From Pilasporangium apinafurcum (Eukaryota > Oomycota > Peronosporomycetes > Pythiales > Pythiaceae): a stretch of 64,000 nt of DNA. The translations under genes and the position numbers were made by a program. The first letter of the stretch is position 1. The number at the start of each line of letters is the position of its first letter. Below are positions 20,001 through 53,200 of the stretch, piece by piece. The notes under the pieces are model-generated. The model ran no database searches, had not been told where the DNA came from, and was given only the letters and a program-made list of their open reading frames with translations. The stretch spans positions 38,299 to 102,298 of the forward strand of contig BCKE01000004.1 of NCBI GenBank assembly GCA_001600495.1, read 5' to 3'.

Positions 20001-22686
20001 CTGTTAGCCCTCGACTAATGTCGTGGGCAATTAATTCGTGACTCAATTCTACCAGTTGAACGTATGCGCTTGGGAAATGCACACTCACTGGCTTGATTGC
20101 ATGAGGAAAGGAATTTCTGTAATTAATCTCCACAAGCATCGCTCGACCAGGAAACGTTGGTGGGAGCATAATCTGCAGAGATTGAGGTATGACTGTTCCC
20201 TTCACAGTTTCGCATCGCATATGGACATGCAAAATTTCGAATTCTGTTTCTATGGTCATTAAGTAGGACGTTAGATTGCCAACGTGGTTCTTTATCTGCA
20301 AGCCAATCTCGAGGGCAAGACTGTACCCAGGTGGGAGAGAAAAAAACTCTTCAGTCGGTTTGATAGTGCCAAGTCTTGAATCTTGTGTTGTGGGTGCAGA
20401 ATTGCCCGATTGATCGCTTTGATTTGATTGCTCTGATTGCGACAATTTTCGAGCCCATGCAATTCCAAATTCGGCAGTGCTTATCGGCACTTGAGGTGTC
20501 GGAGACATACTGGCATTGATAGAGACGTCGAATTTGTTGCTGTTGATGATTTCATTTGTTCGAATTTTGATTGGGATGGGATTCAGGTTGGTCAGCACTA
20601 ATATTTCAGTTCGTGTTGCACGAAATGCGACTTTTCCCAAATCAAAAACCCAAGACCGACAGATTTTAATGTCCTCTACATTAACATCACCACTGAGCAC
20701 ATCGTCATCAATTGGCAGGGCGGGCCGACATGTGTGGTTGGCTTTCACGTCGTTTTTTTTGTTGGTTGTGGTTGTACGGCCTGCGAATGAATATCCAGAT
20801 GTTTCGTGGTTTTGAAGTCCACTACTGGATTGCAAATGCAGGATTCCATGGTACAAATGGTAGTAAGCACGATGGACCGTAGCGTTAGTTTCAACCACGA
20901 TCTCATAATTCCGTGGCAGTGCGAGGTCATCCAGCCTGTGCAATGCTGGTTTAACACGCAGGATCGGTGCATGCCAGAAATCTCCTGGAGCGACAACGCC
21001 TGGTGTAAACTGGTGCAGCTCGACCTCATCATTTTGGGTCGGGAGCCAGATGCGCTGCAGCTCCACGGGGGTATCAAACATGTTCTGAAGTGAAAACGAC
21101 CGATACACGAAGCTCCCCGCTGCGAGGGTCTCTGCGTAATTGTAAAAGGTCGTAGGCACATAGATGCTGGCCGAGTCAAGCAATTCATAACCAAACTTGT
21201 CTCCGCTTCGGACAATCATCGTGAGCGGTATTGACACACCCATCGACGTTTCATCCTGCTTAATTGCTATGGTGCCATTGATCACTTTTCCGATCAGTTG
21301 CAATGTCCGCTGCTGCTCTCGTTCATCTTTGTTGTTCGAGAAACCCACCGATTCGTTTGTTCTCAATACCAAAGTTGCTTTCCAACCACCTGACACTTTC
21401 CCACAAGCAATGATCTCTAATGCTCGCTGTACACGGGCTCTTGGTGGGATCGTTGCTGGTCCGAGTAGCCTAGCTGATAAATCTACATTCTCAGCTTCGA
21501 GTACATGCAGTTCCGTAATGATGACGGGACTGACGCCTACATTGTAGATCGTAATACTAGCAGTTTGCTCTTCTTGTGAATGCACACTCACCCCCAAATC
21601 CAGTTCCTGCGGTTCCACATGCACACCCTCCGGCAGGATTTGCAGCCGAACAGGTATGAGAAACTGCCGCCAATCGTCCGCGGTCCTCGCGACCACGCGA
21701 ATGTGTGTGAACACATCACCAGGTTCTTCTGCTACCAGACTCACCGTCGCGATTGGTTTTGTAGCACCAGATGGCACGTCCCACACACTCTCACCAGCCT
21801 GCAGCTCCTCTGCGTTTGGTGTTGGCGTAAGTGGCTCGTTGTAGTGGGTATTGTTGATATGTGGGAAAGACATAAGCAGCAACCCATCGATGTAAAAGAC
21901 TTCTGTGACATGGATCAGCTCCGTCGACGGATTGTAAAAGTGCAGCGTTTGTTCAAAGCGAGAGCCGATTGGAATAGATTCACGTAAACCACGCAATTGA
22001 TAGGCATTTTGAAGGAAACGGCCGCGGATCGGCACGAAAGCTGCCAGTCCATTAGCTGTCACGACGCGCAAAGAAGCGTCTATATCGTCCTCTGGTTCGC
22101 TTGCTAGCACCGTAAATTTGATCATCACGCTCTCTCCAGAGCCCAACTGCAGGTTCTGCAAGTCTGTCAGTAGCGAGAAGCTGTCGCGAGAGAAATCAGC
22201 ACTCGCCAGGCGTACCGGCTGCATGCCACGGTTAGTGACGTGTACGCCAGTTATCTCTGGATAACATGTTTCAATGTCGCCCAAGTTTATAATAGTTGGA
22301 TCAAAATGTAATGGTTGTGTTAATGGATCTGCTGAATATTTTGCATCAGAGTCGAAGAACGCGTCCGAAACACCATGAGTGATGGAGATGCCCTTGGAAC
22401 TTCTTCGTCCTCTACCACTCAAGTGGATACGGCTGTCGGTACCAATGGATACATAGCCCTCTACATAATGCGGATATGTCGATGGCACTATGGAGGCGGC
22501 ACTGTTCCTTTCTTCATTGTCACTGTTGCTACTGATGGTTGACGCAAGCGATTGCGGAATTGGAAACTCATGATGGAATCCAATGGCATCCCCATCACCT
22601 GCAGCTTGCCAACCAATGGCTGTCAACGGTAGCAGTAGGAACAGCAGCAGGAACAGCCACAGGCTGTCGCTGTTGCGGCGTCTCAT
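17014..22686 (-). CDS. TMEM131-like large single-pass membrane protein
   Basis: Intronless, 1890 residues; the ATG at 22686 precedes a signal peptide (SLWLFLLLFLLLPLTAIGW). The long lumenal part consists of repeated immunoglobulin-like/MSP-type beta domains. Several follow the pattern 'PxxLDFG...V.N.G..PV.I': for example LHFDPTIINLGDIETCYPEI near residue 125 and EPQELDLGVSVHSQEEQTAS near residue 360. A transmembrane helix lies near residues 1298-1324 (WLLSAVVAIFFVIYVVYVAV). The tail of about 565 residues is Ser/Lys-rich and probably disordered. Animal TMEM131 proteins use PapD-like lumenal domains and a cytoplasmic tail that binds TRAPP to help secretion of collagens and other cargo. A role in secretory-cargo export is the family-based expectation; sequence alone shows only architecture. 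Many N-glycosylation sequons suit a lumenal location. Confidence 0.75.
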   Translation of the reverse strand: MRRRNSDSLWLFLLLFLLLPLTAIGWQAAGDGDAIGFHHEFPIPQSLASTISSNSDNEERNSAASIVPSTYPHYVEGYVSIGTDSRIHLSGRGRRSSKGISITHGVSDAFFDSDAKYSADPLTQPLHFDPTIINLGDIETCYPEITGVHVTNRGMQPVRLASADFSRDSFSLLTDLQNLQLGSGESVMIKFTVLASEPEDDIDASLRVVTANGLAAFVPIRGRFLQNAYQLRGLRESIPIGSRFEQTLHFYNPSTELIHVTEVFYIDGLLLMSFPHINNTHYNEPLTPTPNAEELQAGESVWDVPSGATKPIATVSLVAEEPGDVFTHIRVVARTADDWRQFLIPVRLQILPEGVHVEPQELDLGVSVHSQEEQTASITIYNVGVSPVIITELHVLEAENVDLSARLLGPATIPPRARVQRALEIIACGKVSGGWKATLVLRTNESVGFSNNKDEREQQRTLQLIGKVINGTIAIKQDETSMGVSIPLTMIVRSGDKFGYELLDSASIYVPTTFYNYAETLAAGSFVYRSFSLQNMFDTPVELQRIWLPTQNDEVELHQFTPGVVAPGDFWHAPILRVKPALHRLDDLALPRNYEIVVETNATVHRAYYHLYHGILHLQSSSGLQNHETSGYSFAGRTTTTNKKNDVKANHTCRPALPIDDDVLSGDVNVEDIKICRSWVFDLGKVAFRATRTEILVLTNLNPIPIKIRTNEIINSNKFDVSINASMSPTPQVPISTAEFGIAWARKLSQSEQSNQSDQSGNSAPTTQDSRLGTIKPTEEFFSLPPGYSLALEIGLQIKNHVGNLTSYLMTIETEFEILHVHMRCETVKGTVIPQSLQIMLPPTFPGRAMLVEINYRNSFPHAIKPVSVHFPSAYVQLVELSHELIAHDISRGLTVVFSPAYVSACSTGNFFADCFLPLSWTNQSVSSSVNLSQFGKFVTVEDTEAFRHRNALWQEIENASEESRLMIHAEVRLLTDIMDVDTVTLSAPLIRPIVTASTKYEFPLTKIQQIDLLYVQVRNPSNFSVNMQLAVAESDQPLFYSCERGETELECVREWKRLNSRTNGNASSISTGYTNKSPPLFVYSKTIKVPPDHSTELGPIYFFPTTVQEIATTLYVRNELTHIEPVTIIARSGKGELDIQIPTNDEPQSSNSSAYGVKGVYDGVLAFVLTLDQDDSSTFIQQNDVVLTNVGTFPMKIESIHLDEDYSDASPFTLQLQRQPERAEAGTSQASITLAPVARLFLQVTFHARCSLAKVERDLIIRTSDGSKRLALVGTITPSVSAACVRSVIPLGVLHLFRNVWLLSAVVAIFFVIYVVYVAVVDVAFIRTREMSTYAAEQSIFLRDSMGEMMRGMVSSEDGALSEASKELQKRLATMEAISFTPDTRVTTPAVSQLLEQRQKAQATHIGTSTALFESSSVRSNESVADKANDILLVSGQRQVETAMSARAKETIMKKASDTLAVDQAQQESKVSTPRNKHASGTDKTSNNSLHTKPSNAKHIDKERKRDDSTQSEKCNGLRSSSVKQLSSQPLKLSKKKTKNSSVDIVTSDSSTISKMRSSSLHSNLAVTSIKFLESKKKSSSSSSNDGFIEEDPVPALNLFDNEAESLMSSKDKPLGLFAPFGAITSGWRDDKDKETERNKGERLPLASRSTVNGIDEEWEQLSFDSIRFEIGKLVGNEEEKEEISSRATNNGFHQQPASIDFSAASLAPPTGLLLAVEPTTSRSTMSTKQAPPGFTPADANPVESLAAFDRLRGVTSDIGGLASPRTSSFPNRSIGSASPFDLLGTSSTLSSLLTSTCSPFESRFSLFGPSLSSPTTSRINPASAVGRIGSGRSTAVAGEEEGSGGYLYFPRMQEQQHCMGAVISAASRVNGRTTLEPKALPDHDTSPK

Positions 22687-22784
22687 TGCGCCGCTCAACT
22701 TTTCTTTCGTCTCTTTGCTTTTTCTGGGCTTTTGTACCGCTTCTTTTGGATGCGATTTGATATTAGATCACAGAGGTTCAGAAC

Positions 22785-31115: not shown

Positions 31116-32758
31116 CATGGTGTGGCTATTGAGTCCGCGTTGCAGTAGCGGCATTGGGGTTAAACAACAATGTTTGGTATCATAACATCTCAGAAGTTGC
31201 TTTTAGCGTTCGGTGTGCGTGTTACCATTCTACATAGTCCAACACGGGCGAATGGGTCAGCTATGTGAAGTGAACCCTGCTCATTTCCACGTTTTCGAGA
31301 TGACTACTTCATGGCTGGGATGCATTTCGGTCTAAGCTTAAGTTGTATTTGGTTCACCAAGCTGTCCTACCGTCAACGATAGCGAAATACTACCTAACGC
31401 ACTGAGCTGCGAGCGTGTACCCACATCTACTCAGTGTACAGATATGATAGAGACAACGAATCTGACGTATACAATCGGAGACATTATGGCTGCTCGTTAA
31501 CAATTGAACTCAAGCTCGAGAGTATGACGGAGCAGATGGTGTTCAAAGTATAAATGTGGCAAGCACATGCAGCATCAATGTGCATACACACACTATCAAG
31601 GTTTAAGCAAGTGAACCGTGCGAAAATAAAGAAGTTCTTTCACTGCTTTTGCATGTTAATCGTCCACTGAAAGACAACTTGCAATGGCATGACGTTCCCC
31701 ACAACATAATTCCTGGTCTAAGACTGAAGAATGGGATTTCACGATCATACGCACCCCATGGCAATCAAGGCGACACACTTAGACAATGCCATGCAGTTGT
31801 TGATACCAATTCCATCTGCTGAAGAGGTGATTGATCGTGGTGTTGTGCATGAGAGATCCGTGAATGCATGCATTAAGAAGTCGACGTACGAAACTGCCAC
31901 TGGGTATCCAAATCCAACTGAAGATATCAATTCATTTTTGAATAAACGTTCTATCTCCAGCAGCAGCAGAAGGGAAATCACACAATGCGCTGCATCCCAC
32001 ACATACAAGTGGAGCAGTAAAGACGAGGATGAGTATAATTGTGTTTTTGTTAGACATTGGTTGTTTGGATGCATGGACACTGACTACACACATTTGTCTA
32101 TGGGAACTCGGGAGTGTTCCACAATATGTGTATGGATCGGATAAACTCACTTTCGCAGTTGTGGACGTCGCCTATGTGATGGTGAGAATCTGAAAATCCA
32201 TCTGAAACAGCTGCACAAGTACAAAGAACGCAACATTTCTGGCAGCAGCTCATTGCTCAGATATCTTCTGAATATTCGATTACCACTCGCATCGCTATCA
32301 CAGACAGTCAGTGGCAGCAGCTGCAACGACAGTTGCACTTGATTGTATCAACCAAAAGAAGGTGAGATTACTGTATTGATCTTAATGAAAAGAAAGCTTT
32401 TATATCATATTTTGATATTTTTGGTTTTATAGAAAGCGTACATATCACCTTGTTTTGATGTAACAAGCCATGCATTTTCGTATTGTCTGCCTCTTGGATG
32501 CCACCAAAAGGGGGCGAAGACACCTTTATTTTGCAACTTTTATGCTATTTTGTTAATGAAACCACCGTAAAGTTGCTGAAATTAAACTCTTACGGTACTG
32601 TCGATTTTATTTCGGCGGCTCACATGCTATTGATCTCTTCGCGCAACGTCAGTCAAAGAAAGACGCACCTCGAAGAGCTCCAATCGCTCCCGTACTCTCC
32701 AGACAGACAGACGACGGGCAAAACGACGGACGCTGCGCCCACTACCGATTTCCTGCTC
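31116..32758. other. Spacer with an unresolved possible gene
   Basis: No confident gene. An open frame at 31731-32144 (+) starts MGFHDHTHPMAIKATHLDNA. A second open stretch at about 32200-32362 (+) reads FWQQLIAQISSEYSITTRIA and ends TKRR-stop; both look somewhat protein-like. I could not find a phase-consistent junction between them, so a small multi-exon plus-strand gene is possible but unproven. The last 260 bases are open in frame with the channel gene (from an ATG at 32498) but contain GACAGACAGACGACGGGC, like the leader before 8507, and are better read as its 5' leader. Confidence 0.35.
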
Positions 32759-35700
32759 ATGGAGGACACGCGCCCGCCACCGCCGGTGGCATCTATGGCC
32801 GTTTCTGACAAATCGGACGCACTCCGCCGGTCGTCTTTTGCTGTCAATAACCACAATCATCAACTTCACTCTCCGTCGCTCTGGCGCCGCCTTTTCTGCT
32901 GCTGTTGTTCACGCCGGCGACCAACTCATCACCCACCTCACGGCCGATCCACATACGCGAATGGTCGCGCGTCCTTTGTCCCCGACGATATCCGCAGCAG
33001 CCACACGAACCGCCCGAAAACCGAAGCGGAACTGCACGCTGAGAAGGCGATGAAGAAGAAGATCGAGCACTTCTCCACCATGCGCGTGCACATGAAGCGA
33101 GTGCAGCTTTGCCTCGAACAGGAGAAACGCAGCAAGTTCTACAAGGAGCTCTTGGTCTATCTTGTCTTCCTCTCGGTCATCATGATCGCACTACTGTCAC
33201 TGCCAATCCATTTTCCTTACGAGCAGAACGCCGCACTCTCCGATCTTTACTTTGACGAGGAATTTCCCAACGTTACCTTCAAAAAAACCTTCGACGATGT
33301 CGCCACCGAGAGCGAACTGTGGCAGTGGGTGAATGGACCGCTGCTGCAGGGGTATTATGATCCGCCGATCCGCAACAATCGACGCATTGGCAGTATGTTG
33401 CTACGTACGGGGCGGGTTAAGGGCGATCTATGCCGCAACATGGAGAAAAATAACGACTTAGTGCTCTTCGCGGACGAGATCTGCTATCCGGAGTTCACGA
33501 CCCACAACGAAATGAAAGAACCCTACGGGGATAAAAATGGCGTGTTGCAACAGCAGTACCGGTGGGACAATTCGCTCGGTACACTCACACGGTCACAGAC
33601 ATTTACGCCAAGTCTGGTGAACCACGAAATGAACTACGGCAAAGGCGGTTATCCGGTTTATTTGCCTCGAGACAACTACACGGCTGCACAGGAAATCATC
33701 GCGCAGCTAGAAGAAGATTTCTTTACCGATGGATCGAGGTATTTCGCAGTCAATTTTGCGCTCTACAATCCGCGATCCAATCTCTTCACACATATCCAGG
33801 CGCTCTTTGAGATGTCTGACACGGATTATATGGAAATCACTGCGCGTGTCAAGAGTTTTCGCATTCTGGCGAGTTACCGCAACACCGAGGACTTCATTTG
33901 GGATAATTTTCTGATCATTGTGCTCTTTATCGCGACGTTCTGGCTGCTTTTCCGGGAATTAAGTGATTTGCGTGAGCACGGACTGCGCAAGTATGTGCAG
34001 TCGCTCTGGAATCTGCTTGACATGCTGCAGCTTGTTTTGTTGATTGTGTTCTTGGAGCAATGGATTGTATATCTTGTGGATGCTGAAGAAATGCGTAGCA
34101 AACTCTACGATCTAGTCGCCAAGGATTGCGACGGCGCTGCGAGTGACCAGCAAAGCGCAGCAGATTGCTACGTAGAACTGCTGCCATTGGCACAGGACTT
34201 TGCATCAATTAATGATTTCGCCGCGGCACTGGCAATCGTGTCCGTGGCGATCGTGTTCAAGTATTTGCGACTAAACTCACGACTGAATCTTCTTTGGCGC
34301 ACATTGCGCTTCGCCGCAAAAGACCTCTTGGCGTTTGTGGCTATTTTCTTCACAATCTTCTTTGGGTTCAGCGTCATGGGCTTTCTCATTTTTGGCAGTT
34401 CGGTGCGTCAATACCACTCGCTTTCCGTGTCGCTGACGTCGTGTTTCCAGATGTTGCTGGGTGCGTTCGATTACAATCAAATTTATACCGCAAACCCGGC
34501 GATGGCAGGCATATTTTTCTTCAGCTTTATGATCTGCATCTACCTCATCTGCGTCAACATGTTCATTGCGATCATGAGCGAGTACTACTCCCACGCACAG
34601 AACGAGAAGAAAACCCATGAGGAAAACAAGCGCAACCTCATCACTAGCACACAAGACTCATCGGCCATGTCAGCTAATGGCGACTTTGCAGATTCATTGC
34701 AGTTCATGGATGTTGAGTATGATGTCGCGAAGCAGATCAAGAGCTACCTTCAGCGACTGCGCGTGCGTGTCCGTATGCCACCTTCCAAGGGTGAAGTGAC
34801 GGCTTATTCCACACAACAATTGCTATTGTGTGGTTACCAACGCGTGTTGCTAATCGACTATGATTACCTTATGGCCGAGCGGAGGCGTTTGCGGATGAAA
34901 TTTCGCGCTGTCGTGCGTGTGATCATCACTACGTACAACATCATCCGTCTCATTTATCCAGATTACCATATGCACGTTAAGCGTCAGTTACTGGTCGACA
35001 AGCGGCCGCGAGCGTCGTCGACCGACTCGTACGCCGATGTCGTCGATTTTCCCGTGACGTATCTACCCATTTCGTCCACTGGTGCCAACACAGTCGAGAT
35101 TCTCAAGGGACTTAAGCGGGGCATGCACATTGAAATGGACGACGGCTCGCTCACAAAAGACCAGATCACACTCGAAGTCTTGGGCGGACAAAATGAATAT
35201 ATTCCCTCGAATTTCCGTCGACGGACCGAATCACTCGCAACAAATGATGAAATGCAATTGCGCATCAGCGAAGCGACGAACATACAGAATGACGATGATC
35301 CGAGCCAGCGCCAACCATTTGGCTTGCGATTCGACCACGGGGAATTTGGCGCCGCAAGTCATATCCGCTGCTGCCGCGTCATCTACAACGGCGATACGCT
35401 GCTGAATGGTATGGAGACGTGTCTGTTGCCTCGTCGCACATGGGTGCGCTACTTTGTACGCTACATCTTTTGGGGATACGTGCGGGATGTCTTGACCTGC
35501 AAACGACGCAAGAAGAAAGTCAATCGTCTGATCTCAGACATGGAAGTTGACCGTCTCATCACACAGAGCTTTAATGCACCTGGCCGCGGTATCTCGTGCC
35601 GATTCGATGAGCTCGTGCGTAATTTCCGCATGTTCATCGCCAAGAAAGTGCATAAACGTAACCTGAATATCCACAACCTAGAGGAGCGAATCCTGAACGA

Positions 35701-36928
35701 GGTCATCACGTTCCTTGAGCGATTCCCATCGGCGCTCGCACCACTGGACAAGCGTGAACTCGAAGGCTACAAGTACGTACCGCAGCCGATCGACACGAGT
35801 CGCGTGCGGCTGCCTAACTCAATTAACCTCCTGACCGAGTTGCTCTCGCAAAATGCACACGAAGTGTGGGCGGTCGGACGTATCGAACAAGGCTGGCGGT
35901 GGGGACTAACGCGCGACAATGAGGCCAAGTTGCATCCAGACCTCATTCCGTACGAAGATTTGTCGGAGCAGGACAAGCAGTACGACCGCGACACATCCAT
36001 GTCTGCGCTCAAGGTCATCACAGCACTCGGGTACATTCTCGAGCCGCCACCGCACGCTGAGGCGATTGACATTCAGTTCGGCGTGCCTGCCGAGGAAGAA
36101 GGTGGTACATACACACCGCGGCCGATCCCGACCGAGGACGTGAAGGTGCCATATCATCTGCGGTCAGTTATCGAATTGCTTGCGGAGAACACCCACGAAG
36201 TGTGGGCGAAAATGCGGCTGTCGCAGGGCTGGAAGTATGGACCACGGCGGGACGACGCCAAGAAGGAGCACAACGGACTGGTGCCATATATTTACCTCAC
36301 GCAGGAGGAGAAACAGATGGACCGAAACACGGCGATGCAGACCGTCAAACTCATTTTGCGCTGCGGGTTCGCGTTTGTGCACAAGAACAAGATCACGTCG
36401 TCTAGTCGCGCCAAGAAGAAGCCATCGTCCTCAGGCAGCATCAAAGTCTTTGGACGGAACGAAAACCCGGAGCTAAAGCATGTGCCAGACGCCGTGGCAT
36501 TGGCGAGGGGGACAACGCGTGCTAAACGCGCGTTCATGACGCGTGGCCAGCAGGGCGGAGCGACTGGCAGTGGAGGCAGCAGCGGCGGAGCGCAACAGTA
36601 CTACACGAACCGCATGTACTCGGCCGCGGGATCGTCACGATCACTGCGGTCGGCGTCGTCGATGGATTTGCCACCATCTTCGGGACGAACAGTGAACCGC
36701 GCATTGAGTAGTGCAACGTCAACTGCGTCGTCGATCCCGGAGGAGGACGAGTATGTACCGCTGGCGCCCCCAGCAGAGGAGGAAGTGGAGTATTATGATC
36801 TGCGTGAGGCACCAGTGTCAACAGAAGAAACAGCAGCTGCATCGTCCAGTCCCTCGAGTCTACCGCACAACACCAACAGTAATGGTGGCGATGCAGCGGA
36901 AGTGGAAGAGCACAAGAGCATCCAGTAG
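32759..36928 (+). CDS. Polycystin-type cation channel with two C-terminal RyR domains
   Basis: Intronless, 1389 residues from the ATG at 32759 (in-frame ATGs at 32498 and 32625 would lengthen it). Domains: Pro/His-rich N-terminus with a Cys cluster (LFCCCCSRRR); TM1 about 127-150; a long extracellular polycystin (TOP) domain with sequons, about 155-370; S2-S4 at about 383-400, 417-440 and 488-506; S5 about 522-547; pore helix and filter FQMLLGAFDYNQI about 561-573; S6 about 583-610 (ICVNMFIAIMSEYY). A cytoplasmic region follows, then two RyR repeats at about 1005-1095 and 1117-1210, each with HEVWA, a GW(R/K)(W/Y)G motif, a (L/H)-(I/V)-PY block and a Tyr/Met-DR(D/N)T end. The tail is Ser-rich and low-complexity. 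Polycystins are Ca2+-permeable channels, often ciliary. RyR repeats otherwise occur in ryanodine receptors and some prokaryotic and viral proteins. Confidence 0.9.
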   Translation: MEDTRPPPPVASMAVSDKSDALRRSSFAVNNHNHQLHSPSLWRRLFCCCCSRRRPTHHPPHGRSTYANGRASFVPDDIRSSHTNRPKTEAELHAEKAMKKKIEHFSTMRVHMKRVQLCLEQEKRSKFYKELLVYLVFLSVIMIALLSLPIHFPYEQNAALSDLYFDEEFPNVTFKKTFDDVATESELWQWVNGPLLQGYYDPPIRNNRRIGSMLLRTGRVKGDLCRNMEKNNDLVLFADEICYPEFTTHNEMKEPYGDKNGVLQQQYRWDNSLGTLTRSQTFTPSLVNHEMNYGKGGYPVYLPRDNYTAAQEIIAQLEEDFFTDGSRYFAVNFALYNPRSNLFTHIQALFEMSDTDYMEITARVKSFRILASYRNTEDFIWDNFLIIVLFIATFWLLFRELSDLREHGLRKYVQSLWNLLDMLQLVLLIVFLEQWIVYLVDAEEMRSKLYDLVAKDCDGAASDQQSAADCYVELLPLAQDFASINDFAAALAIVSVAIVFKYLRLNSRLNLLWRTLRFAAKDLLAFVAIFFTIFFGFSVMGFLIFGSSVRQYHSLSVSLTSCFQMLLGAFDYNQIYTANPAMAGIFFFSFMICIYLICVNMFIAIMSEYYSHAQNEKKTHEENKRNLITSTQDSSAMSANGDFADSLQFMDVEYDVAKQIKSYLQRLRVRVRMPPSKGEVTAYSTQQLLLCGYQRVLLIDYDYLMAERRRLRMKFRAVVRVIITTYNIIRLIYPDYHMHVKRQLLVDKRPRASSTDSYADVVDFPVTYLPISSTGANTVEILKGLKRGMHIEMDDGSLTKDQITLEVLGGQNEYIPSNFRRRTESLATNDEMQLRISEATNIQNDDDPSQRQPFGLRFDHGEFGAASHIRCCRVIYNGDTLLNGMETCLLPRRTWVRYFVRYIFWGYVRDVLTCKRRKKKVNRLISDMEVDRLITQSFNAPGRGISCRFDELVRNFRMFIAKKVHKRNLNIHNLEERILNEVITFLERFPSALAPLDKRELEGYKYVPQPIDTSRVRLPNSINLLTELLSQNAHEVWAVGRIEQGWRWGLTRDNEAKLHPDLIPYEDLSEQDKQYDRDTSMSALKVITALGYILEPPPHAEAIDIQFGVPAEEEGGTYTPRPIPTEDVKVPYHLRSVIELLAENTHEVWAKMRLSQGWKYGPRRDDAKKEHNGLVPYIYLTQEEKQMDRNTAMQTVKLILRCGFAFVHKNKITSSSRAKKKPSSSGSIKVFGRNENPELKHVPDAVALARGTTRAKRAFMTRGQQGGATGSGGSSGGAQQYYTNRMYSAAGSSRSLRSASSMDLPPSSGRTVNRALSSATSTASSIPEEDEYVPLAPPAEEEVEYYDLREAPVSTEETAAASSSPSSLPHNTNSNGGDAAEVEEHKSIQ

Positions 36929-37034: not shown

Positions 37035-39250
37035 TTAATTCTCTCTCGGGAGACATGTGTAAAGCGACGCAAGGATCAGTGGTGAGCGTTGGGCCGCACG
37101 TAGGTACTCGTCCCTGGTGAGTTGACCGTCGCCGTCACGATCTTCGTCCTCCAGCACACGCACGACCTGCATCACGTTCTGCCCGAAATGTGCAAAGCTA
37201 GCGCATACGGCGGCGCACAGTTCCCCACGCGACAACACGCCATCCCCATCAGCGTCGTAAATTTCGAAGTAATAACGCGCCTTTGCTTCGGGGTCTTGTT
37301 CAGCGGCGAGCATGCTTTGCAGAGTGACGGCGATGTCTTGCGTGAATTCTCCACAAGAAACGTATGCGGCTGCAATACATGAACACACAAAGTCAATCAT
37401 ATGAAGATGAAGACGTAGTCCAACACAGCTTAACGTACTAATGCGGTGCAGCACATCCCGTTGAAGAGAAGCAGAAGACGACAACGAACCAGTCAGCGCG
37501 TCTCCTGTCGATGTTGTTGGACGAGAACTTGTCGGTGTTGCCACTGTCGACGGGCGGGAACTGATTGGAGTCGCAGCAGCGTTGGGCGCAATTACTTCAT
37601 GCGGTGATGCAACGTACGCCAGCAGAATCCGCTGTGTAAGTTCTTCATCTGTTAGCGCCAACGGGCCGAGGCACGCAAGCAGGATCTGGTGGAAGTCTGC
37701 GACAGGGATGGCTGTCCACGTAGGAGATGTCGGCGATGTGCCGCTGGCGGCGGTTGATCGCGTACATTCAGCCATTCGTCGCTGCAGACCGAGCAGTTTC
37801 TGCCATGTGATCTGCTGCTGCTCGATGAACTGACGAATAAGCTCGCGCGCCGTGTGGCCATCTACTGCAACGGTGTACTTACGTGACGGCACGGGGCGAC
37901 TGATCATCGCTAGTAGATGGGGTTCTGCCAGTGATGTTGCCACAAACTCGTCCTCTTTGATCGTACTATCATCACGGAGCTCAACGCGCACGAAATATTC
38001 GTCCACACACCACATGAGCTCGTGATATAACTGTCGATCGCCCTGGAAGAGCCCTAGCAGGTCAGAAATGGCCACTGTCGGCTGCTCATGCGTCTGCGGA
38101 TGGTCATTCTGCGCGTAAACATCGAAAAGCGCGTTTACTTTCTCTTCCGCAGTGCCCGATACAAAACCGTTGAACCCCACGACAAATTCGCGGAAATCAA
38201 TTTTCCCGTCGCCATCGGTGTCAAACGTGAGGAAAAGTCGGCGTAAAAACGTCTCGCTGCCCGAGATGGTTGCGCCAATGGCGCTCATGTCCGCTTGTGG
38301 TGGATAGCCATTGATTTCCCCATCTGGATCGGATGATCTATTCGAGAATGTGATTCCCATGCCTGTCAAGAAATTACCGACGTTTTCGCTCATGATTTGC
38401 CTGAATTCATCGAAGCAGATGACGCTCTTGGTGGCGCCAGCGATGGTTTTAAACTTGCGACTCAACTGGAAAATGTTTTCAGTGGAAAATTTGGTCCGAC
38501 GGATGAGCTCGGCGATTAGTTGTTGCTTCCCTGCGCCATTTGTGGTAGTCGTTTTGTCTTGTGGGATGCTCAACGCCCCTCCGTCGACTTTATTGTGAGC
38601 GCGTAGTACCTTTCCGAGTTCTGTCGTGAGGATGCTGCTGCCAACGTTGCTACTTGACTGCATTGGATAAAAATTGGCCAATGCAGAGCTACGCTTCTTT
38701 AGGGCAGCCTTGATTCTGTGGAGAAGAGCGACAGTGCTGGTAAGGAATGATATAGCGTCCACGCCAACAGTGATTTTTCCACTAACCTTACGAGCTCATG
38801 CGATGGCAGCACACGGGCTTTGCCGCCAACAGGCACGTAGACGGCAGGTGTGGGAGTTGTCGGTAGTGGGCTATGGTGATAGTAATGGTGTTTCAAGGAT
38901 TCGATGGTGATATTATGCGCGTTGTCGGTGCTTGACGAAGAGTTTCTTGGACTCAACGCCGCTTTTGCACTTGGTACCATTGGCTCTCCATGTGGTGAAA
39001 GTGAGTGATGGGAGCGAGCGGCAGCAGTAACCACCCCGTCCGTGGATGGGCGGAAGCATTCATTCCGGAGGAGAATACGGTGGATTCGTTCACGAGGAAG
39101 CAGTTCAAGCTGGGACGCAGGCGAATGAGGAGGAGCATATGCTTGTTGAGTTAGTGGCTGCTGCGGAGTGTGGAGATGCTGAAGCGCATCGAGCTGCTGT
39201 GTCACATTGAGAAAGCTTTGAGCGAAATTCGCTCTGGAAATAGCTTCCAT
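37035..39250 (-). CDS. EF-hand calcium-binding protein
   Basis: Exons 38787-39250, 37439-38736 and 37035-37369 give 698 residues. The second intron (37370-37438) is 69 bases with GTACGT...TTGCAG ends and has no stop, so retention would give 721 residues. Three canonical EF loops are visible: FDTDGDGKIDFREF in the middle, and YDADGDGVLSRGEL and DRDGDGQLTRDEYL near the C-terminus. The N-terminal 150 residues are low-complexity (HHYYHHSPLP) and there is a Ser/Thr/Pro linker before the last pair. The arrangement resembles calcineurin B/NCS-type modules in a larger protein, but no catalytic domain is present. It is convergent with the polycystin-RyR channel, 106 bases apart. A calcium sensor is the safe call. 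Confidence 0.85.
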
Positions 39251-39487: not shown

Positions 39488-42251
39488 TCAAAAAAGGAAG
39501 AACGTCTGAGCCAGTGGCAACCTATCGGCAGGTGCGCAGGTCAGTAGCTTGTCGTCTGCTGTGACTTTGTACGTCTCCGGGTCGACTTTAATCTTGGGCA
39601 ACGCGTCGTTAAGCTTCATGTGTTTCTTGGTGACACTGCGGCAGTCCTTGACAGCTTCGATACGCTTCTTCAAGCCGTACCCTGCTGCGATTTTCTTCTC
39701 CACGCAGCTTTTGCTGACAAACGCGATGGATGTGTCGCCGATGGCAGCACCAAACGCGCCAAACATTGGACGCATCTTGACAGGCTGCGGTGTAGGGATG
39801 GACGCGTTCGGATCACCCATCTGAGCATACGCAATGACGCCGCCCTTGATCACCATTTCGGGCTTGCTGCCGAAGAAGCTTGGTTCCCAGAGACAAAGGT
39901 CAGCCAATTTGTTTACCTCCACCGACCCGATGATGTGCGACATGCCATGTGCGATCGCTGGGTTGATCGTGTACTTGGCAACATATCGTTTCACACGGAA
40001 GTTGTCGCGCTGATGCACCGATGTTGCATCTTCCGGCAGCAAGCCGCATGTTTTCTTCATCTTGTCAGCCGTCTGCCACGTGCGAGTGATGACCTCGCCA
40101 ATGCGCCCCATGGCCTGTGAGTCGGAGGAGATGATGCTGATGGCACCCATGTCATGCAGCAAGTCCTCGGCAGCGATTGTTTCACCGCGGATACGTGACT
40201 CAGCAAATGCCACGTCTTCGGCGATGTTCTTGTCCAAATGATGGCAGACCATCTATTAAAAGGAATGGAGAAAACATGTAAGTATTCATTGGTGACATAT
40301 TTACTTAATAGAATACAAGTAAGCAAGCTTACCAGCATGTCGACATGTTCATCAATGGTGTTGCGAGTGTATGGACGGGTGGGGTTAGTAGATGATGGCA
40401 GTACATTCAATTCACCGCAGACTGTCACAATATCTGGCGCGTGTCCACCGCCGGCGCCTTCGCTGTGGTATGTATGGATGGTACGTCCTTTAAACGCAGC
40501 AATCGTATGCTCAACACAGCATGACTCATTGAGTGTATCAGTGTGGATGGTCACTTGCACATCATTCTGCTCGGCGATTGTCAAGCAATTGTCGATGGCC
40601 GCAGGTGTTGTGCCCCAGTCTTCGTGCAGCTTCATTCCGACGGCACCGGCATCGATAATGTCCTGCAGTCCCGCAGGCAGTGCGGTGTTACCTTTGCCCG
40701 TGAGCCCAATGTTCATTGGGAATGCGTCCGTCGCCTGCAGCATCATTTTCATATGATTTGGTCCAGGTGTACAGGTCGTGGCATTCGTGCCTGTGGCCGG
40801 ACCAGTGCCACCACCAACCAACGTAGTGAGGCCACTGGCGAGTGCCTCGGTGCACAGCTGTGGACAGATGAAGTGCACATGGGCATCGAATCCACCAGCT
40901 GTAAGGATCAAGCCCTCACCCGCAATAACTTCAGTGTTGACACCGACCACCATGTTGGGCATGACGCCGTCCATCACGTCAGGATTGCCGCCTTTACCGA
41001 TGCCCGCAATCAAACCGTTCTTCAAGCCGACATCAGCCTTGTAGATACCCGTGTAATCCACGATGAGCGCATTCGTGATGATCGTGTCCAGAACCTGCGA
41101 AGCATCAACGCCCGACGCCTGGCCCATACCTTCACGAAGTACCTTGCCCCCTCCAAACTTGCACTCATCACCATAAACCGTCATATCTTTTTCTACCGCC
41201 ACGTACAGTTCCATATTACCGAGGCGCACGACGTCACCTGTGGTTGGACCATATGTCTGCGCGTACACACTGCGCGGTATCTTACAGATTCCAAAGCCTG
41301 GTGGCGTAGTCAAAGTCGCCAGTGGCTTGTGGTGGAAACCTTGCGCAACAGCCTTGGCCACGATCTCATCCACTTTCGAAATGTCCACAGTACCAGTTGC
41401 GAGGTTATTGCCGCCGGTGATGACTTTGTTCCCCCCGATGGGGACGATTGCAACGGTTTTCTGGTCTCCTGGTTCAAAACGCACGGCTGTGCCTGACGCA
41501 ATGTTGAGGCGGTGACCATAGGCGAGTTTTCGATCCATCTCCAGATATGGATTGGCTTCGATCAAATGGTAGTGACTACCTACTTGAATGGGTCGGTCCG
41601 TGAGGTTGGTGATTTGCAGCGCCTGTACCGGTCGGTCAGCATTCAGCACAATATCTTCATCCGCTGTAATGATCTCTCCGGGGGAGTGCACGACCACCGC
41701 AGTGGATGTAGCGGTAGGTGTTGGACCAAACAACTCGAGCGATGGAACTGGCAGGAAAGAGCCATAGAGCGCCAGACTGAGATCACCATCGAGATTGGAT
41801 ATCGGATGGTGGATCGTCACGAGTTTCGTGCCGTCAGGAAATGTGCCTTCCACTTGCACTTCGTCCAGCATCGCCGCTACCCCATCCATAACTTGGCGTC
41901 TACGTAAACACACGCATGCTATGTTAATGATCGCGCTCCCTGTCTCAGTTTCCCAGCTGCGTCAGTATTAGCAAATCGCTACCTGCCGAGTAATTGGGCG
42001 CCGAGTGTCATGAGCTCCGCGACAGTCTTTCCGTCACGAATGAATTCTAGCACCTACCACAGACATACAAGCATTGATATAAACCAAACACGCATGGAGA
42101 TCTAACGTACGAAGGTGAGAGGTACCTGAGTGGCCAGAAGAGCCACACTTTCGGTGTAGTTGAGTTTCAGGCCACGCGCGAGTCGCTTCTGCGCCAAAAC
42201 GCCAGCCGCATGGAGCAGCAAATGGTCTTCTTCCCTCGGACTAAGCCGCAT
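39488..42251 (-). CDS. URE: Urease, single-chain gamma-beta-alpha type
   Basis: Four exons: 42126-42251, 41983-42053, 40333-41899 and 39488-40252; 2529 bases, 842 residues, close to jack bean urease (840). The gamma part begins [20 protein letters not shown]; the beta part includes [20 protein letters not shown]. The alpha part holds the nickel site: HVHFICPQL (two His), GMKLHEDWG (the Lys that is carbamylated), HTDTLNES, and [12 protein letters not shown]. The mobile flap reads [10 protein letters not shown] (Cys-His-His), right at the last exon junction. All catalytic residues I can place are present. It hydrolyses urea to ammonia and carbamate in the cytosol and needs nickel and accessory proteins UreD/F/G, none of which lies in this window. 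Confidence 0.97.
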
Positions 42252-42566: not shown

Positions 42567-45500
42567 TTATGTTGCAGGAGCTGGGATACGTTGCAACAAC
42601 AAATCCACTTTCGCAACAATATCGTTGCACGACTGGTGAGATCCAGGCTTTAGACCTTCGAGTTGGTCCTGCAATTGCGTTGTAAGTTGCATCCGTAAAT
42701 TCGTTACTTCTTCATTCACGCGCTTCATAACGTCGCTCGTGATAGCCGCTGCCAGCTGTCTCATTGAATCCTGTTGGTGATGCGTTGCTGGTCCTAGATT
42801 TGTTCCGGTTTCAGTGCCATTGGGTACCATTGTTGCCGTCAGGTATGGCTTAAGATCAGGCAGAGATGGGTACATTCCATCAGTCACACGACCATTGAGA
42901 TGCGTCATGTACTGCTCGTCGTCGTCGGAATCATTGTCGGTATCACGATAGGTAGCGAGTCTGGATTTTGATGAACGTACCAACGGCAAACCTCCGCGTC
43001 TTTTCATCTTTGTCGTTGAGGCCTTGCGAACGCAAGATTGCAGCAGCTCCGTGCCACGAAGACTCGTGTAGAGCGTCTTGACTACATCACGCCCGATCCA
43101 CTTCTCATACCGATGTAACGCATTAGCAAGCTCAGTAAGCGACCGCTCTTCGGCCTGTGCGCGCACTTTTTCGTACTCCGACGTCATGAGTGCGGTGACC
43201 AAGTTGAGTGCCACAACTACCACCATCGCCACATAAAGCACTAACAACGTAAAGCCCAACCAGTTGCGTGCGCGGATATTCTGGTCAATATGGAAGTTAT
43301 CATCGTAGTCAATATCCCCAAATGTCGCGAGGAAGACGATGCGCATTGATGTCAGTATTCCCGTATGGGGCCCCAGACCATGGAAGAGCAGATAGAACGC
43401 CCCGGAGAAGCCCAAGAGCAGCAGTAAATAGTGAAAGAGGAACTGCGCAACGACTCGACACATGCGCACAAACGTGAAGATGAGCACACTGAAGAATGAT
43501 GACACCATAAGCGTTTGCATCAGGTTCACACACAGCAAAATGCTGAGTATACTGAGGAGACACTCACGGATGGTGTCATGACCTTCCATGATTTCAAACG
43601 GAATCGTACTCAGTACGAGTAAATACGTGCCGATATCCAGCAGATTCCAGAGCGATCGCCAGTACTGACTCCGATCAGAGCGCCACTCAAGATAAAATTC
43701 AACGTATACCAAGAGATACAGAGCCATGCCCCATGAAGAGAATTTGGTGGCCCCAACAAAGTAATCCAGCGGCTTCTGGAAGTCAATCCATTTATAGTGT
43801 GAAGTTTGCTCCAGATCTCCATTCGGAAGTGTCTTCACCTTAATATTCGGCAAGAAGAGGTTCGAGAGGAAGAAGAAAGTGAGCATCAACACATATCGGA
43901 TAACTTGTCGCTTGTGTGAATGCGCGCCAAAGAGCTACATACGGCCATTAAAAGGTAATTGAAACAATTGCGAGATCGTCAGAGTGAGAATTCATATCGT
44001 AAAGCATACCTTCCATTTGAGCCGAATTGCGTTCCGAATGACTGGGTGCGTAACTACAGATGGTGGCTGAAATGATCTGAAAGCTGCGAGACGAGATGTA
44101 CGACGAGCTGGAGGACTCACAATTTGCTCCAGATTTTGGCAGACCTCGAAAACCTTAATACACAGTACTATCAGCAACCTGCATGGTTAGACATATGATA
44201 GTTTGTAGTTTACCTCATTGAAACGATACACTTTATCTCCGTTGACATGATTCATCTCGACCGCATAGTGATCCAAAAAGAGTGCGAGAGCTGAGGGGTG
44301 AACATCGAGTAGCCGTTGCAAAACCGCGTCATTCCACTTCATATCCGGCGTTGGCAACGTACTGGGGGAGATGTCAGTCCGACGTAATTTGGGATGTCGA
44401 GGCAGTATAACAGAGTTTGGCGTGCTCAGTAGAATCTCAATGATCCCGTACGGAGTTGGGGAGGTATTCCACAGTGCAGTGTAGAGTGGTGTGAGCCAAG
44501 GTCCCACAGAAGTAGATTTTACATTTTGGCAAGCCATTGTAACATCTGCTCCACGTGCAATTAGGAAAGCGCAAATATCAGGTTGATTCTGTTCGCAGGC
44601 GATATGCAAAGCCGTCTTCAGCTGCTTATTCTGCAAATTACACGAATGTTTGAGTAAACATCATGAATACGGGCCATAGATAAAAAGAAAGGTTTTTGTT
44701 GCGCACCGGCTGATTGATGTCCATCTGGGCCTCTGTCAGCAAATATGATATCAACGCGGCAAAGTTTCGATGACCATGAGCAGCAACAAGATGCAGTAGC
44801 GAGTCTCCAGTGGTTTCTATTGTATATTGCTCCACAGCATAGTTCTTCAGGATACGAACACCATGCTGTCGCGTGTCGAGAAAGATTTTGTGAATCGCAA
44901 CGCCACTTGAGTCGTGCTGATATACTGGGTAAGATCTCCCAAATTGATCATTGTAGCATTGCTCCAAGAACTGCTCGTACAATGCTCTGGCTTTAGCATA
45001 GGCAGTGATGTGCCGTGTACTGTCTTCTATACGTAAGAACCTGGGCAACAGTAATGGAAAGTGACGCTGGATTTTCTCGCGGCAATCGAGAAGCGCCTGC
45101 TCATCCGATGGCAGCGCTTCCGGTTCGCCAAGTAAAAAAACAACTACCGCGTTCCGTTGCTCGAGTCTCGCGGCCGAATCATCTTCAGTAGAGGATGCTG
45201 TTGCGCTTATGGTTGCAGCAAAGTTGATTGGTTTCCAGAACTGAAAATTCTCAGTCGGTTGGTCTATAAGACGTTTATCTGATGCCGAGCATTCTTCGCT
45301 TGCGTCTGCACCTTTCTCAATGAGTGCTTGACAAAATCCAAGTGCGCCAATCTCAGCGGCAACATGCAATGGCGTCTTTCCTTCCCAGTTCTACACGTAG
45401 CGAACGAAAAAAACAACCGACTCAGCGAAACAACACTATGGCTGATATGATAGCGCGCATACGTACACGCTTGGTGACTAACGTCCATAGTAAACGGTTT

Positions 45501-48993: not shown

Positions 48994-51632
48994 ATGGTGT
49001 CGGAATCATCATCTTCTACTACGGCACCTTCCTCGTCTACCGATGTAAATGCCAACACCATCCAGAAATGGATCACAGCCAACTTCGTGGAGGACGAGAC
49101 CCAGTTAGTCGTAGGTCTTTCTCCTGAAATCATCGACATTCCCGCAGATGACCGCGTCTGTGGCGGCCTGCCATCGCTACAAACACTATCGTCCACTACG
49201 TCACCTAATGGTGCATGTCCAGACGTTTTCACCGCCGGAAATGATTCCTGTACGTGCATTAGCGGATTCGCAGAGACCGACACGTCATGGACATTCTACG
49301 TCCAGTCTAGGACCAACAACACGACGTATCCAGCTACACAGAAATCCACAGAACCCTTGGCGATCGACGCCATCCGTCCCATATACATTTCCAGTACCCT
49401 CCAGACTCTGTATGATTGCTGTTATAAATGCTAGCGTGGCAGATGATATGGAGAGGGAGCTAACGGATGACTATTACGATTGTTTGTAGACACATTGAAG
49501 GTGTAGGTGACTCACCAGTGGAGCTGACATTTCTAGCAGAGAACCGTACCGTGACGATCGATTTACCAATCGCAAAAGCTGCAGATGGAGCTATCCTCAA
49601 CCTGACTACTCTGTGCGTAGTCTATAATTCTATCTCTTGCTTACCAAAGTGTTTTTTAGTCTCACCTTTGGGTGATGTACAGTGAGTTGGTAAATATCGA
49701 TATGTCTAATATCGTCACAACTGTCTCGACGTTTATCCCAGACACCGTCATAAATGTGTAAGTTAGCATTTCGTTGGTACGCATTTCGCGGCGATGACTT
49801 TCTGGAGATTACTAAATAATAATATTGCAATTGTGATCTGCAGAACGATGCGAAATTGCAACATTGACAAATTTGGATTCGAGTTCCTGACTGAACTAAG
49901 TGAAACCATTTCCTACATGTACGTAACGAGGACGAGCTGATGATTTTCTCAGTGTCGACAGGATCTTTAATGTTGTTGGTGATCGTAGGGATTATTCATT
50001 CAATAGCCTAACAGCTCCGTACGCTGGTTCAACCGTCACTACATCCTGTGGTGCGACTTTTTGTGGGCTAGTTGAATAGTAAGTCCACCACCGTTGCCAT
50101 ATTATGTATGTGACGCTAACGTTCTATCTATTATCTTTGTTGGTGCAGCAACATATCGTATAACAAACTCAAGAGTTTTCCAGCGGCTATATTGAATGTG
50201 TCGGGTCTGGAACGATTGTAAGCGATGACTGTGCTGTTTAGAATCTTGCCGATGTCGATTGATCTAATTGATGCCTCATCCTAGGTATATTCAAGGAAAC
50301 GCGATCACAGACTTTAACATCAGTGCAAAAGTGTTTGCAGCCATCGACAACTTGATCGCATTTGAATCGGATCAACCCGATAGCTCAGCAACATGTATCG
50401 ATGGTACATGGAACACTACGCATGGAATTCAATTCTGTGTGCTGAACAATGAGGCAGATACTGATGGTATGAAATGATTAGTTATTCCTGTATACTTTAT
50501 CACTCGAATGTTGCTAATTGCGTACTTTTGCGTCGCAGAAACTTCATCATCAAATCATACCCATTCGGTGCTTATATATGTGGCTATTGCAGGTGGCATC
50601 CTCGTGTTTGTGCTGCTTTTAGTGCTTATCAAGCAAAGATATTTCTCTTCGGCAAACACAAAGAAGGTCGAGTTAAACTCGCCGTTTGATCAGACAAGCG
50701 AGATCGGTGATACGTATCTGACGCTGAATATCAGCATGATGAACGATCCTATCATCGCCACAAATCGCATTGACTACAAAGACGTGAAGTTGGGGAAGTG
50801 TATCAACCGAGGTGGCTTTGGACTCGTTTTTATTGGGGAATACAAAGATCGACAAGTAGCTGTCAAAAAAATCGGAGCAGAATACAATGATGAAGTCGCA
50901 CAGATCCAGCAGTTCATCAGAGAAATCACGTTGATGGCGACGTTAACTCATCCACGCATCGTCGAGTTCATCGGTGTCGCATGGAATTCGCTACGCAATT
51001 TGTGTGCTGTGACCGAGTTCATGGAACGTGGAGACTTGCGAGAGGTTTTGCAGAACTTCAGCAATCGTGAGGGCTACGAACTCACGTGGGAATGTCACAA
51101 AATTAACTTTGCGCTTCACATCGCAGAGGGGCTGATATACTTGCATTCGTTGACGCCAAAAGTGATTCACCGGGATCTGAAATCCAACAATGTGCTACTC
51201 AGTTCTACGTATGAGGCAAAACTGAGCGATTTTGGGATCTCTCGGGAGAGGCGATTTGTCGAATCACACATGACAACTGGTGTAGGTACAGCGTTTTGGA
51301 TCGCACCCGAAGTGCTATTGGGCAGGGATTACGATGAACGCGCCGATATCTATTCATTCGGTGTGGTGCTCTCTGAAATCGACACGAACGATTATCCGTA
51401 TTGGAATGCCAAGAATCCGCCAGAGGGAAAGATTCAAGAGGGTGATATTCTTCGCATGGTGGCAGCCGGAAACTTACGGCCATCGTTTTCGGAGACGTGT
51501 CCAACGGAAATACTGGATTTGGCGGAAAGCTGTTTGTCTGGGAATCCCAGTGCACGCCCCACAGCAACAGAAATCGTATACGAATTGCGCGCATGTATAC
51601 ATTCTCTTCGGTCGTCATTTCACTCATTCTAG
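48994..51632 (+). CDS. LRR transmembrane TKL receptor kinase, copy 1
   Basis: Eight exons in phase: 48994-49409, 49490-49612, 49683-49757, 49844-49918, 49989-50078, 50149-50217, 50285-50466, 50539-51632; 707 residues. Exon 1 encodes a Cys-containing domain (CGGLPSLQTLSS, NGACPDVFTAGNDSCTC). Exons 2-7 encode leucine-rich repeats, e.g. NISYNKLKSFPAAIL and YIQGNAITDF. TM helix about 354-376 (VAIAGGILVFVLLLVLI). The kinase, about 426-690, lies wholly in the last exon: P-loop CINRGGFGLVF, VAVKKI, HRDLKSNNVLL, DFGISRE, FWIAPEVL, DIYSFGVVL. All catalytic residues are present, so it should be active as a TKL-group Ser/Thr kinase. The N-terminal MVSESSSSTTAPSS shows no signal peptide. Ligand unknown; receptor-type signalling at the plasma membrane is expected. 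Confidence 0.92.
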
Positions 51633-53200
51633 AGCGTAGAATCCCACAACATAAGCTCAATTATTTCAATTATTATAGATGAGTAAAGTACACATAAGTG
51701 AGATGTGTGCACTTGTCTTCACACCACTGACAAAGCAGGCAACAGCTCCAAGTGTGTTTGTTCGTGGTGATGACATCCCAATGTGCGCAAAGACTAAATT
51801 TGTAATTGCGAAGATATGTTTGATCGATAATCGACGAGTAATCTACACGGCAATCGCATGACCAAGGTCTACGACGATTGGATGACATATTTGATTTGCT
51901 GTTGAACTAGTGACGTGACGTTCGACTGATTGATGACTGAGCCACCTGGTACATGCCGCTTTCACTCAGGGTCAATGACAAGAAGCGATTTCACAGGTAT
52001 ATTGTGTCCTCCTATTGCTAACGAGGATCCAACTGTAAATTGAGAGACTAACAAAGAAGTTTCCTGTGGACTTACTTTGGTAAATTATTGGATCTTGTAA
52101 TCTTTTCCTGCCTTAATATGTGACAATGTTAGTAGCGTTCCCGCTCATCATGCGTTCAATGGCCACTTTGGCGTTCGTCAGGATGAAGGTGAATGATCAC
52201 TAATGTGTTCTATAAGCTTCGTCGAGCCAATGAAACGATCGATCGCACCCTTTCGATCCAATGGTAAATGATGGAAAAAGTTATCCTTGTCATCCTCCTC
52301 TCCTTCCAGAAAGAGAACTGGATGGATTCAGGCAGATCAAGAATTCTGAACATCGGTACAGTTGGCTACCTGGACCGATTTTTTTCTGCTTTTTTTTTTT
52401 CATTCATGTTGATGAGCACTAAACAACTTCCGACTGTCGGCTGCTCTTCACCATTCATGAGCAAAAGATTTGTTTCATGGAAGAAAAAACAAAAAAAATA
52501 TTTAGACACGCTTTGCCATGTTGCGTACTTACTCGTCGACAATGATCCCTAAGAAATGCACGTTGGTGGGTTTTGTTCCGACCACCAACAACATCCATCA
52601 CTGACTCTTTCAAACTTTACCCATGTAAGAGAGTGGGATTAATGGTCATCCATACTCTCCTAGCGAATGCTCCAAGTCTTGTGGCTCGTTTGCTTTGTGC
52701 TTCCTCCTATTCTTAATACAGCTACTTCCGTCGATTGTGAGAAAAATTTTGCAACCACATGGTGGTTGGTGCACATGGCAGCTCCCCTCGCCCCATACAC
52801 ACAGGAGATTTGTCTCACTTACAGAGGCAGAGCACCCCCCTAGTTTTCGGTTCAGTAGCCCCACGTTGAGTTTCAAGCACTTCTACCCGCCCAGCTGGAC
52901 GAGTCTGGAGTCTATACCGTCGGTTGGTCGCCCATGCTATGCTGCTAGCCGCTGCTTATCATTCCGCTTCCATTCCCCAGCGTATTGCGTTATTAGGATC
53001 AAAAATACGGCAAACAGTGCAGAATAGTGGCTCCGTACAACAAACCGTAACGGAGCGTGGCGTGTGGCTTCATTTTTCAGCAATTTGTGGCTGCCAAAGG
53101 ATCTTTCTGCTTAACAACAGCACTGCTCTATTGATACAGCGCCCAGAAAGCAGATCAGCGAGAGTTGGAAGACCGACCAGTGCATTTAAGATCATACACG
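51633..53200. other. Spacer between receptor kinase copies 1 and 2
   Basis: The largest spacer of the array, 1.6 kb, AT-rich with T runs near 52385 and A runs near 52490. Open frames are short. I find no kinase or LRR relic that would show a lost copy, and nothing else to annotate. Confidence 0.45.

Follow-up and report, generated by a model that had tools for sequence, protein, structure and literature searches.

Channels in which a polycystin-type pore carries ryanodine receptor (RyR) domains are known from oomycetes as PKDRR proteins. They are described in PMC4820453 (Zheng & Mackrill 2016), which reports them from each of the nine oomycete genomes that it covered, and in PMC7399828 (Zheng et al. 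2020), with two subfamilies, Western blots and localisation; both papers also cite Mackrill 2012 for these channels, and PMC9694693 is a further source on the proteins. In subfamily A the selectivity filter is LGA and the second RyR domain is followed by more than 10 residues; in subfamily B the filter is AG(D/E) and fewer than 10 residues follow (PMC7399828). According to the available text of the same paper, PKDRR-B of P. infestans is produced, forms multimers and is found at the cell surface, by microscopy on sporangia and hyphae and not on zoospore structures, and Western blots gave a band in zoospore lysates too. A flagellar location, which a first-pass annotation of the present locus had considered, is not supported by this microscopy, despite the lysate band. 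In HEK cells expressing PKDRR-B, neither triptolide nor cinnamaldehyde evoked a reproducible Ca2+ response, and the GFP control responded to external ATP as these cells did (PMC7399828). The role of the RyR domains was unknown to the 2020 authors (PMC7399828), and protein contacts were thought likely in the 2016 paper (PMC4820453).

The window analysed here is a stretch of 64,000 nucleotides from Pilasporangium apinafurcum. It contains a stop-to-stop open frame at 32483-36928 on the forward strand, and the first ATG, at 32759, gives a protein of 1389 residues. The features of the gene are, in window coordinates:

32759..36928, + strand: PKDRR-A gene, a single open frame of 1389 amino acids plus stop, its architecture repeated in the paralogue L007
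33152..33208, + strand: TM1, residues 132-150, hydropathy peak 2.68
33296..33865, + strand: polycystin (TOP) domain PF20519, residues 180-369, Polycystin_dom 60.9 bits (Pfam)
33914..34591, + strand: polycystin channel PF08016, residues 386-611, PKD_channel 82.7 bits (Pfam), PKD2L1 143.3 bits in PDB
34457..34465, + strand: predicted selectivity filter LGA, residues 567-569, within MLLGAFDY (565-572), the published PKDRR-A signature (PMC7399828)
34610..35773, + strand: cytosolic linker, residues 618-1005, common to the PKDRR-B paralogue
35774..36043, + strand: RyR domain 1, residues 1006-1095, 109.2 bits in the genome search (C4:74072-74341)
36110..36376, + strand: RyR domain 2, residues 1118-1206, 108 bits in the genome search (C4:74408-74674)
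35858..35986, + strand: putative pocket residues of the first RyR domain from the alignment, H1034, W1037, R1041, R1052, H1059 and D1076
36194..36322, + strand: putative pocket residues of the second RyR domain from the alignment, H1146, W1149, R1153, R1164, H1171 and D1188
36377..36925, + strand: C-terminal tail of 183 residues, Ser- and Gly-rich, its length a feature of subfamily A (PMC7399828)

The first-pass annotation had read a complete polycystin and two RyR repeats in one frame, and PF02026, PF08016 and PF20519 all match the translation. Over the whole protein PF02026 gave 205.8 bits (E 8.6e-62) in two stretches, the best at 1006-1095, and each repeat was matched in its own right, at the scores listed above. 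The residue ranges given earlier (about 1005-1095 and 1117-1210, span 35770-36390) were right to within a few residues, and the expected HEVWA, GW-x-(W/Y)-G and PY blocks are present in the repeats, the last two as GWRWG/GWKYG and IPY/VPY. Hydropathy peaks at 132-150, 379-397, 413-440 (two overlapping), 481-499, 526-544 and 585-603 fit TM1 and S2-S6. When the RyR tandem was compared with the PDB (phmmer), RyR3 scored 235.8 bits over the whole chain, with the best stretch, 122.8 bits, at 844-1049 of that chain, which is Repeat12. The channel half matched 36 PDB sequences, the top 16 being PKD2L1 or polycystin-2 (best PKD2L1, 143.3 bits), and none of the 36 is named as a RyR or an IP3 receptor. 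Given these two scores, both sequence matches are beyond chance. No MIR, RIH or RIHA domain was found in the protein by Pfam at E up to 1, and the filter is LGA as against the GGGIGD type, so the protein lies outside the ITPR/RyR superfamily.

Several other genes lie in the same window. A frame for an EF-hand protein of 575 residues (37035-38762, - strand) lies tail to tail with PKDRR-A, with 106 bases between the two, and a second ion channel (42567-43892, - strand; Ion_trans 49 bits, PKD_channel 40.9 bits) is found about 5.6 kb from PKDRR-A. A fused gamma-beta-alpha urease is spread over two overlapping frames at 39488-41913 (- strand), the split probably being an intron. Four protein kinase frames with similar scores follow each other at 50508-62897 (+ strand) and are likely a tandem family, and a frame of 1894 codons at 17014-22698 (- strand) has HYDIN/CFA65-like and TMEM131-like Ig domains.

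The window gene almost certainly encodes a PKDRR-A protein: it has a TRP-superfamily PKD channel domain, a pair of RyR domains close to the C terminus, the filter LGA and a tail of 183 residues, far more than the 10 that mark subfamily A. The paralogue L007, on contig C22, has the filter AGE and 7 residues after the second RyR domain, which places it in PKDRR-B; both assignments follow the published criteria and not an alignment to published PKDRR sequences. The window protein thus shares with the PKDRR-A family the channel, the two C-terminal RyR domains, the LGA filter, the long tail and a B paralogue in the genome, and no feature separating it from that family was found in a comparison with the published descriptions. 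The first-pass annotation knew of no polycystin carrying RyR repeats. That novelty is lost, since the fusion is the published PKDRR family (PMC4820453, PMC7399828), and an undescribed architecture is ruled out by papers in print since at least 2016. The annotation is a correct reading of an already known family, and what is added here is a ligand hypothesis with named residues.

The genome holds, in addition to the PKDRR-A/B pair, a kinase-RyR-RyR gene and a frame of 661 codons with both TIM and GAPDH domains, a combination that we take to be a stramenopile trait. The kinase-linked protein L008 (C3, 2846-5080, - strand) has a PH domain, a protein kinase domain and two RyR domains, both without the pocket Asp, with N and S instead. 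It matches the oomycete kinase-RyR class of PMC4820453, and the available text of that paper does not mention a PH domain.

Structure prediction, named as a check in the first-pass annotation, gave RyR domain 1 the fold of RyR3 Repeat12. The model of this domain, made with 37 other rows, had a pLDDT of 96.7, and in Foldseek it matched closed human RyR3 Repeat12 with a TM of up to 0.92 and an rmsd of 0.8, the ATP complex 6uhh being among the RyR3 matches. At the top of the Foldseek matches were RyR structures of B. thetaiotaomicron, with a TM of 0.81-0.91 across the first 18 rows. The tandem was modelled from a single sequence, without alignment, and reached a pLDDT of 33, too low for a usable model; in the alignment built for the tandem all 36 other rows fell on repeat 1.

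In the structures of RyR3 Repeat12 with AMP-PCP or ADP, W880 stacks on the adenine, K884, R895 and R1018 touch the phosphates of AMP-PCP, the contact of R1018 is lost with ADP, and W994 stacks on the drug (PMC12627627). The alignment puts W, R and R in the W880, K884 and R895 columns in both repeats of PKDRR-A and in both of PKDRR-B. Animal repeat 1 reads W,K,R or W,R,R there, repeat 2 reads W,R,Q, repeat 3 has W,K followed by L, V or Y, and repeat 4 has W,K followed by a gap; the two domains of the kinase protein L008 read W,K,R and W,Y,F. R1018 has no counterpart in the PKDRR domains, whose residues in that column are D, G, N and C. From the alignment PKDRR is predicted to have two complete W/R/R half-sites as compared to one in animal Repeat12, with one phosphate contact fewer. 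PKDRR and the Repeat12 of RyR1, RyR2 and RyR3 are alike in the tandem RyR fold and in the repeat-1 W, K/R and R nucleotide-contact residues. They differ in that PKDRR has a TRPP pore, no MIR or RIH by Pfam and no R1018 contact, and in that both of its repeats retain the Asp along with the second Arg and the second His.

The phage enzyme RyDEP acts on 2'/3'cADPR through H75, W78, H100 and D117 (PMC13232231, a 2026 preprint). The corresponding columns, H29, W32, H54 and D71, were set by the equal spacing of 3, 22 and 17 and the shared H, W and H, the RyDEP sequence not itself being in the alignment. All four PKDRR RyR domains, both repeats of the window protein included, have the H,W,H,D tetrad. 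In animals the four columns read H,W,H,N in repeat 1, H,W,N,N in repeat 2, H,W, then H or Q, and Y in repeat 3, and H,W,H,D in repeat 4, which is without the second-Arg loop; each of these holds for 3/3 RyRs. The two domains of the kinase protein have H,W,H followed by N in one and by S in the other. The available text of PMC13232231 states that all four ligand residues of RyDEP are conserved in animal Repeat12, but our alignment has Asn at the Asp position in the first two repeats of RyR1, RyR2 and RyR3. Since animal repeat 4 has the tetrad in all three RyRs, these four residues by themselves do not set PKDRR apart. The complete set of six residues (H, W, R/K, R, H, D) is found in 4/4 PKDRR domains, in 0/12 animal repeats and in neither of the two kinase-linked domains. 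PKDRR shares an RyR domain with H, W, H and D with RyDEP and the bacterial stand-alone RyR proteins (PMC13232231; PDB 3nrt). RyDEP is a small protein that forms homodimers, whereas PKDRR has two domains in tandem on a channel. In the available text of PMC3482391 the ryanodine receptor appears only as a target of cADPR, and neither this text nor that of PMC7159879 adds anything on the RyR domain.

All 45 bacterial loci have the first H and the D, 43 have the W and 31 have the second H; the full tetrad is likewise present in 31, and the R895 column has R in 34, K in 6, T in 3 and L in 2. Of the two search patterns of each collection, one contained the first His and the other the Arg of the K884 column, and one viral pattern also contained the Trp, so that the conservation of these three is partly built in; neither the bacterial nor the viral patterns contained the second His, the Asp or the R895 column. 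All four residues are present in 6/6 viral loci, of which L071 and L072 are identical in domain sequence. The Asp, at a catalytic position, is thus kept in 45/45 bacterial and 6/6 viral loci, in 0/6 animal Repeat12 domains and in 3/3 animal repeat-4 domains. Nineteen columns are at least 95% conserved in bacteria (44 rows, without L068), and among them no column but D71 is present in 4/4 PKDRR domains, 0/6 animal Repeat12 domains and 0/2 domains of the kinase protein. In the full set of 12 animal repeats D71 is found in 3. An early view that the Asp was lost altogether in animals rested on repeats 1-3 of RyR1 and RyR3 and is ruled out by the three repeat-4 domains.

Taken together, we consider it probable that PKDRR-A is a cation channel of the polycystin (TRPP) type and that it is tuned by a ligand, which we infer to be an adenine nucleotide or a molecule of the ADP-ribose type. 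At the cell surface the subunits would come together as a channel, and the two RyR domains would shut against each other, in the manner of the RyR3 Repeat12 clamshell or of the dimer formed by bacterial RyR proteins, with an adenine nucleotide or an ADP-ribose-type ligand held in the cleft. The closure could then be passed on through the linker to the pore and alter Ca2+ entry; against this coupling step, the linker is without a known coupling domain, and a degenerate EF-hand considered there by eye is not claimed. The loss of the R1018 phosphate contact and the lack of a reproducible Ca2+ response in HEK cells with PKDRR-B (PMC7399828) also speak against the ligand reading. For the separate claim that the RyR pair may bind an adenine-containing ligand, we judge the case from the residues to be evenly balanced. 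That the ligand would be a cyclic ADP-ribose isomer or ADP-ribose is rather unlikely, and our confidence in it was lowered slightly because the Asp is also found in animal repeat 4. The nucleotide-sensing module of the first-pass annotation is plausible from structural work on RyR domains and from the pocket residues, but no such idea is put forward in the available text of PMC4820453 and PMC7399828.

A comparison can be made with TRPM2, a TRP-family channel with a cytosolic ADP-ribose-type domain, although it belongs to a different TRP subfamily and its ligand domain, NUDT9-H, is unrelated to RyR. If the inferred ligand is right, PKDRR would resemble it in joining a TRP channel to a cytosolic domain of ADP-ribose type.

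The rival that survives best is that the RyR pair is a module for protein-protein interaction or assembly with no small ligand, as proposed in 2016 (PMC4820453), which we hold to be possible, though on the unlikely side. It was argued from RyR1 structures in that paper, phosphorylation of animal Repeat34 is reported (PMC6784350), and H29 and W32 are kept in every one of the 18 aligned domains from PKDRR, the kinase protein and animals, even in animal repeats 3 and 4. Being so widely kept, these two residues may in part serve the fold. A contact surface would, however, not call for the whole set of six pocket residues, which both repeats of both PKDRR proteins keep and no animal repeat has, and within the top PDB match the highest-scoring part is Repeat12 of an animal receptor, a nucleotide binder (PMC12627627).

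Another reading makes the RyR pair an enzyme on the channel, a 'chanzyme' hydrolysing cyclic ADP-ribose isomers as RyDEP does. The complete H-W-H-D in 4/4 PKDRR domains, with both members of the catalytic dyad, is in its favour. Of eight further phage RyR homologues six bind cyclic signals, but none cleaves them despite high conservation (PMC13232231), and so the tetrad is no predictor of catalysis; it is also present in animal repeat 4. We regard an enzymatic role as improbable, and prefer the tuned channel.

The paralogue L007 is a single frame of 1201 codons with Polycystin_dom at 166-328, PKD_channel at 374-603 and RyR at 212.8 bits in two stretches. It aligns with the window protein from TM1 through the end of the second RyR domain, linker included, with an identity of 33% over 460 columns for TM1-TOP-channel, 25% over 308 for the linker, 40% for RyR domain 1 and 53% for RyR domain 2. 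That linker and tandem are common to two loci argues against an artefact of assembly or reading, and suggests that the polycystin-RyR fusion predates the A/B split. Third-position GC is 0.58-0.71 across six windows of 300 bases from 34559 to 36358. That a missed intron or boundary has joined a channel gene and a RyR gene is highly improbable, for although the linker (618-1005) has no Pfam domain over the cut-off, the paralogue keeps the domain order in one frame with the linker conserved, the coding composition is continuous across the channel-RyR junction, and antibodies to N- and C-terminal epitopes of P. infestans PKDRR-B gave a major band of the same size, albeit of 101 kDa as against the calculated 159 kDa, a discrepancy that the authors could not settle (PMC7399828).

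A source for such a ligand can be looked for in the genome itself. There are 12 TIR_2 matches, 6 of them with W-C-x-x-E-L, which we take to be the catalytic-Glu motif of TIR NADases; in one of the six, on C40, the frame is broken by a stop within the match. Two TIR proteins with the motif were scanned and have ankyrin repeats and TIR. Among the TIR genes L077 and L078 and the regions L081-L086 there are three frames with two TIR matches each, one of which is without the Glu motif. No match to the CD38-type cyclase PF02267 was found in the genome, in a search without a positive control; in the available text of PMC4820453, CD38 was not found in two oomycetes, and homologues of CD38 and phospholipase C are reported as undetected. 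With TIR proteins carrying W-C-x-x-E-L in the genome and CD38 not found, a route from TIR through cyclic ADP-ribose to PKDRR appears possible. It is conceivable, but unlikely in our judgement, that PKDRR proteins act as TRPP channels whose gating signal, a cyclic ADP-ribose isomer or ADP-ribose, comes from the oomycete's own TIR proteins, the RyR pair being the sensor and slow hydrolysis possibly ending the signal; our confidence in this was also lowered slightly, as the tetrad is present in animal repeat 4.

Every PKDRR domain is nearer to its best bacterial or viral match (51-57% identity) than to any of the 12 animal repeats (best 40-51%). In an RyR tree of 60 rows and 89 columns (L068, L072 and L074 left out of 63 rows), 8 of the 57 inner branches are starred and the four PKDRR domains are scattered, so a bacterial source of the RyR domains is possible at most. 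None of 39 candidate viral contigs has a relative of the whole PKDRR protein. In 35 of the 45 bacterial loci the stop-to-stop frame is 95-183 codons, with little beyond the RyR domain, and in 6 there are about 610-670 residues after it, within the sequence stretch covered. Four loci with long parts after the RyR domain are L033, L043, L050 and L055, three of them running off the sequence stretch. Five longer bacterial proteins were scanned: two have RyR, TPR-S and nucleotide cyclase, one RyR and flavodoxin, one two RyR domains and one RyR alone. The first two (L025, 1746-4100, and L040, 1986-4244) have the RyR domain N-terminal, then the TPR-S sensor, and a C-terminal cyclase domain just over the cut-off; the flavodoxin fusion is L044 (1890-2846). 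The association of RyR with a cyclase fits nucleotide signalling.

If the preferred reading of PKDRR-A as a ligand-tuned channel is true, the RyR domain would have a nucleotide-signal role on a TRP channel, as it has in phages. TIR enzymes would then be linked to Ca2+ entry in oomycetes, and there would be indirect support for cyclic ADP-ribose acting on the RyR domains of animals. The pocket residues retained in PKDRR suggest a testable trigger for the channel.
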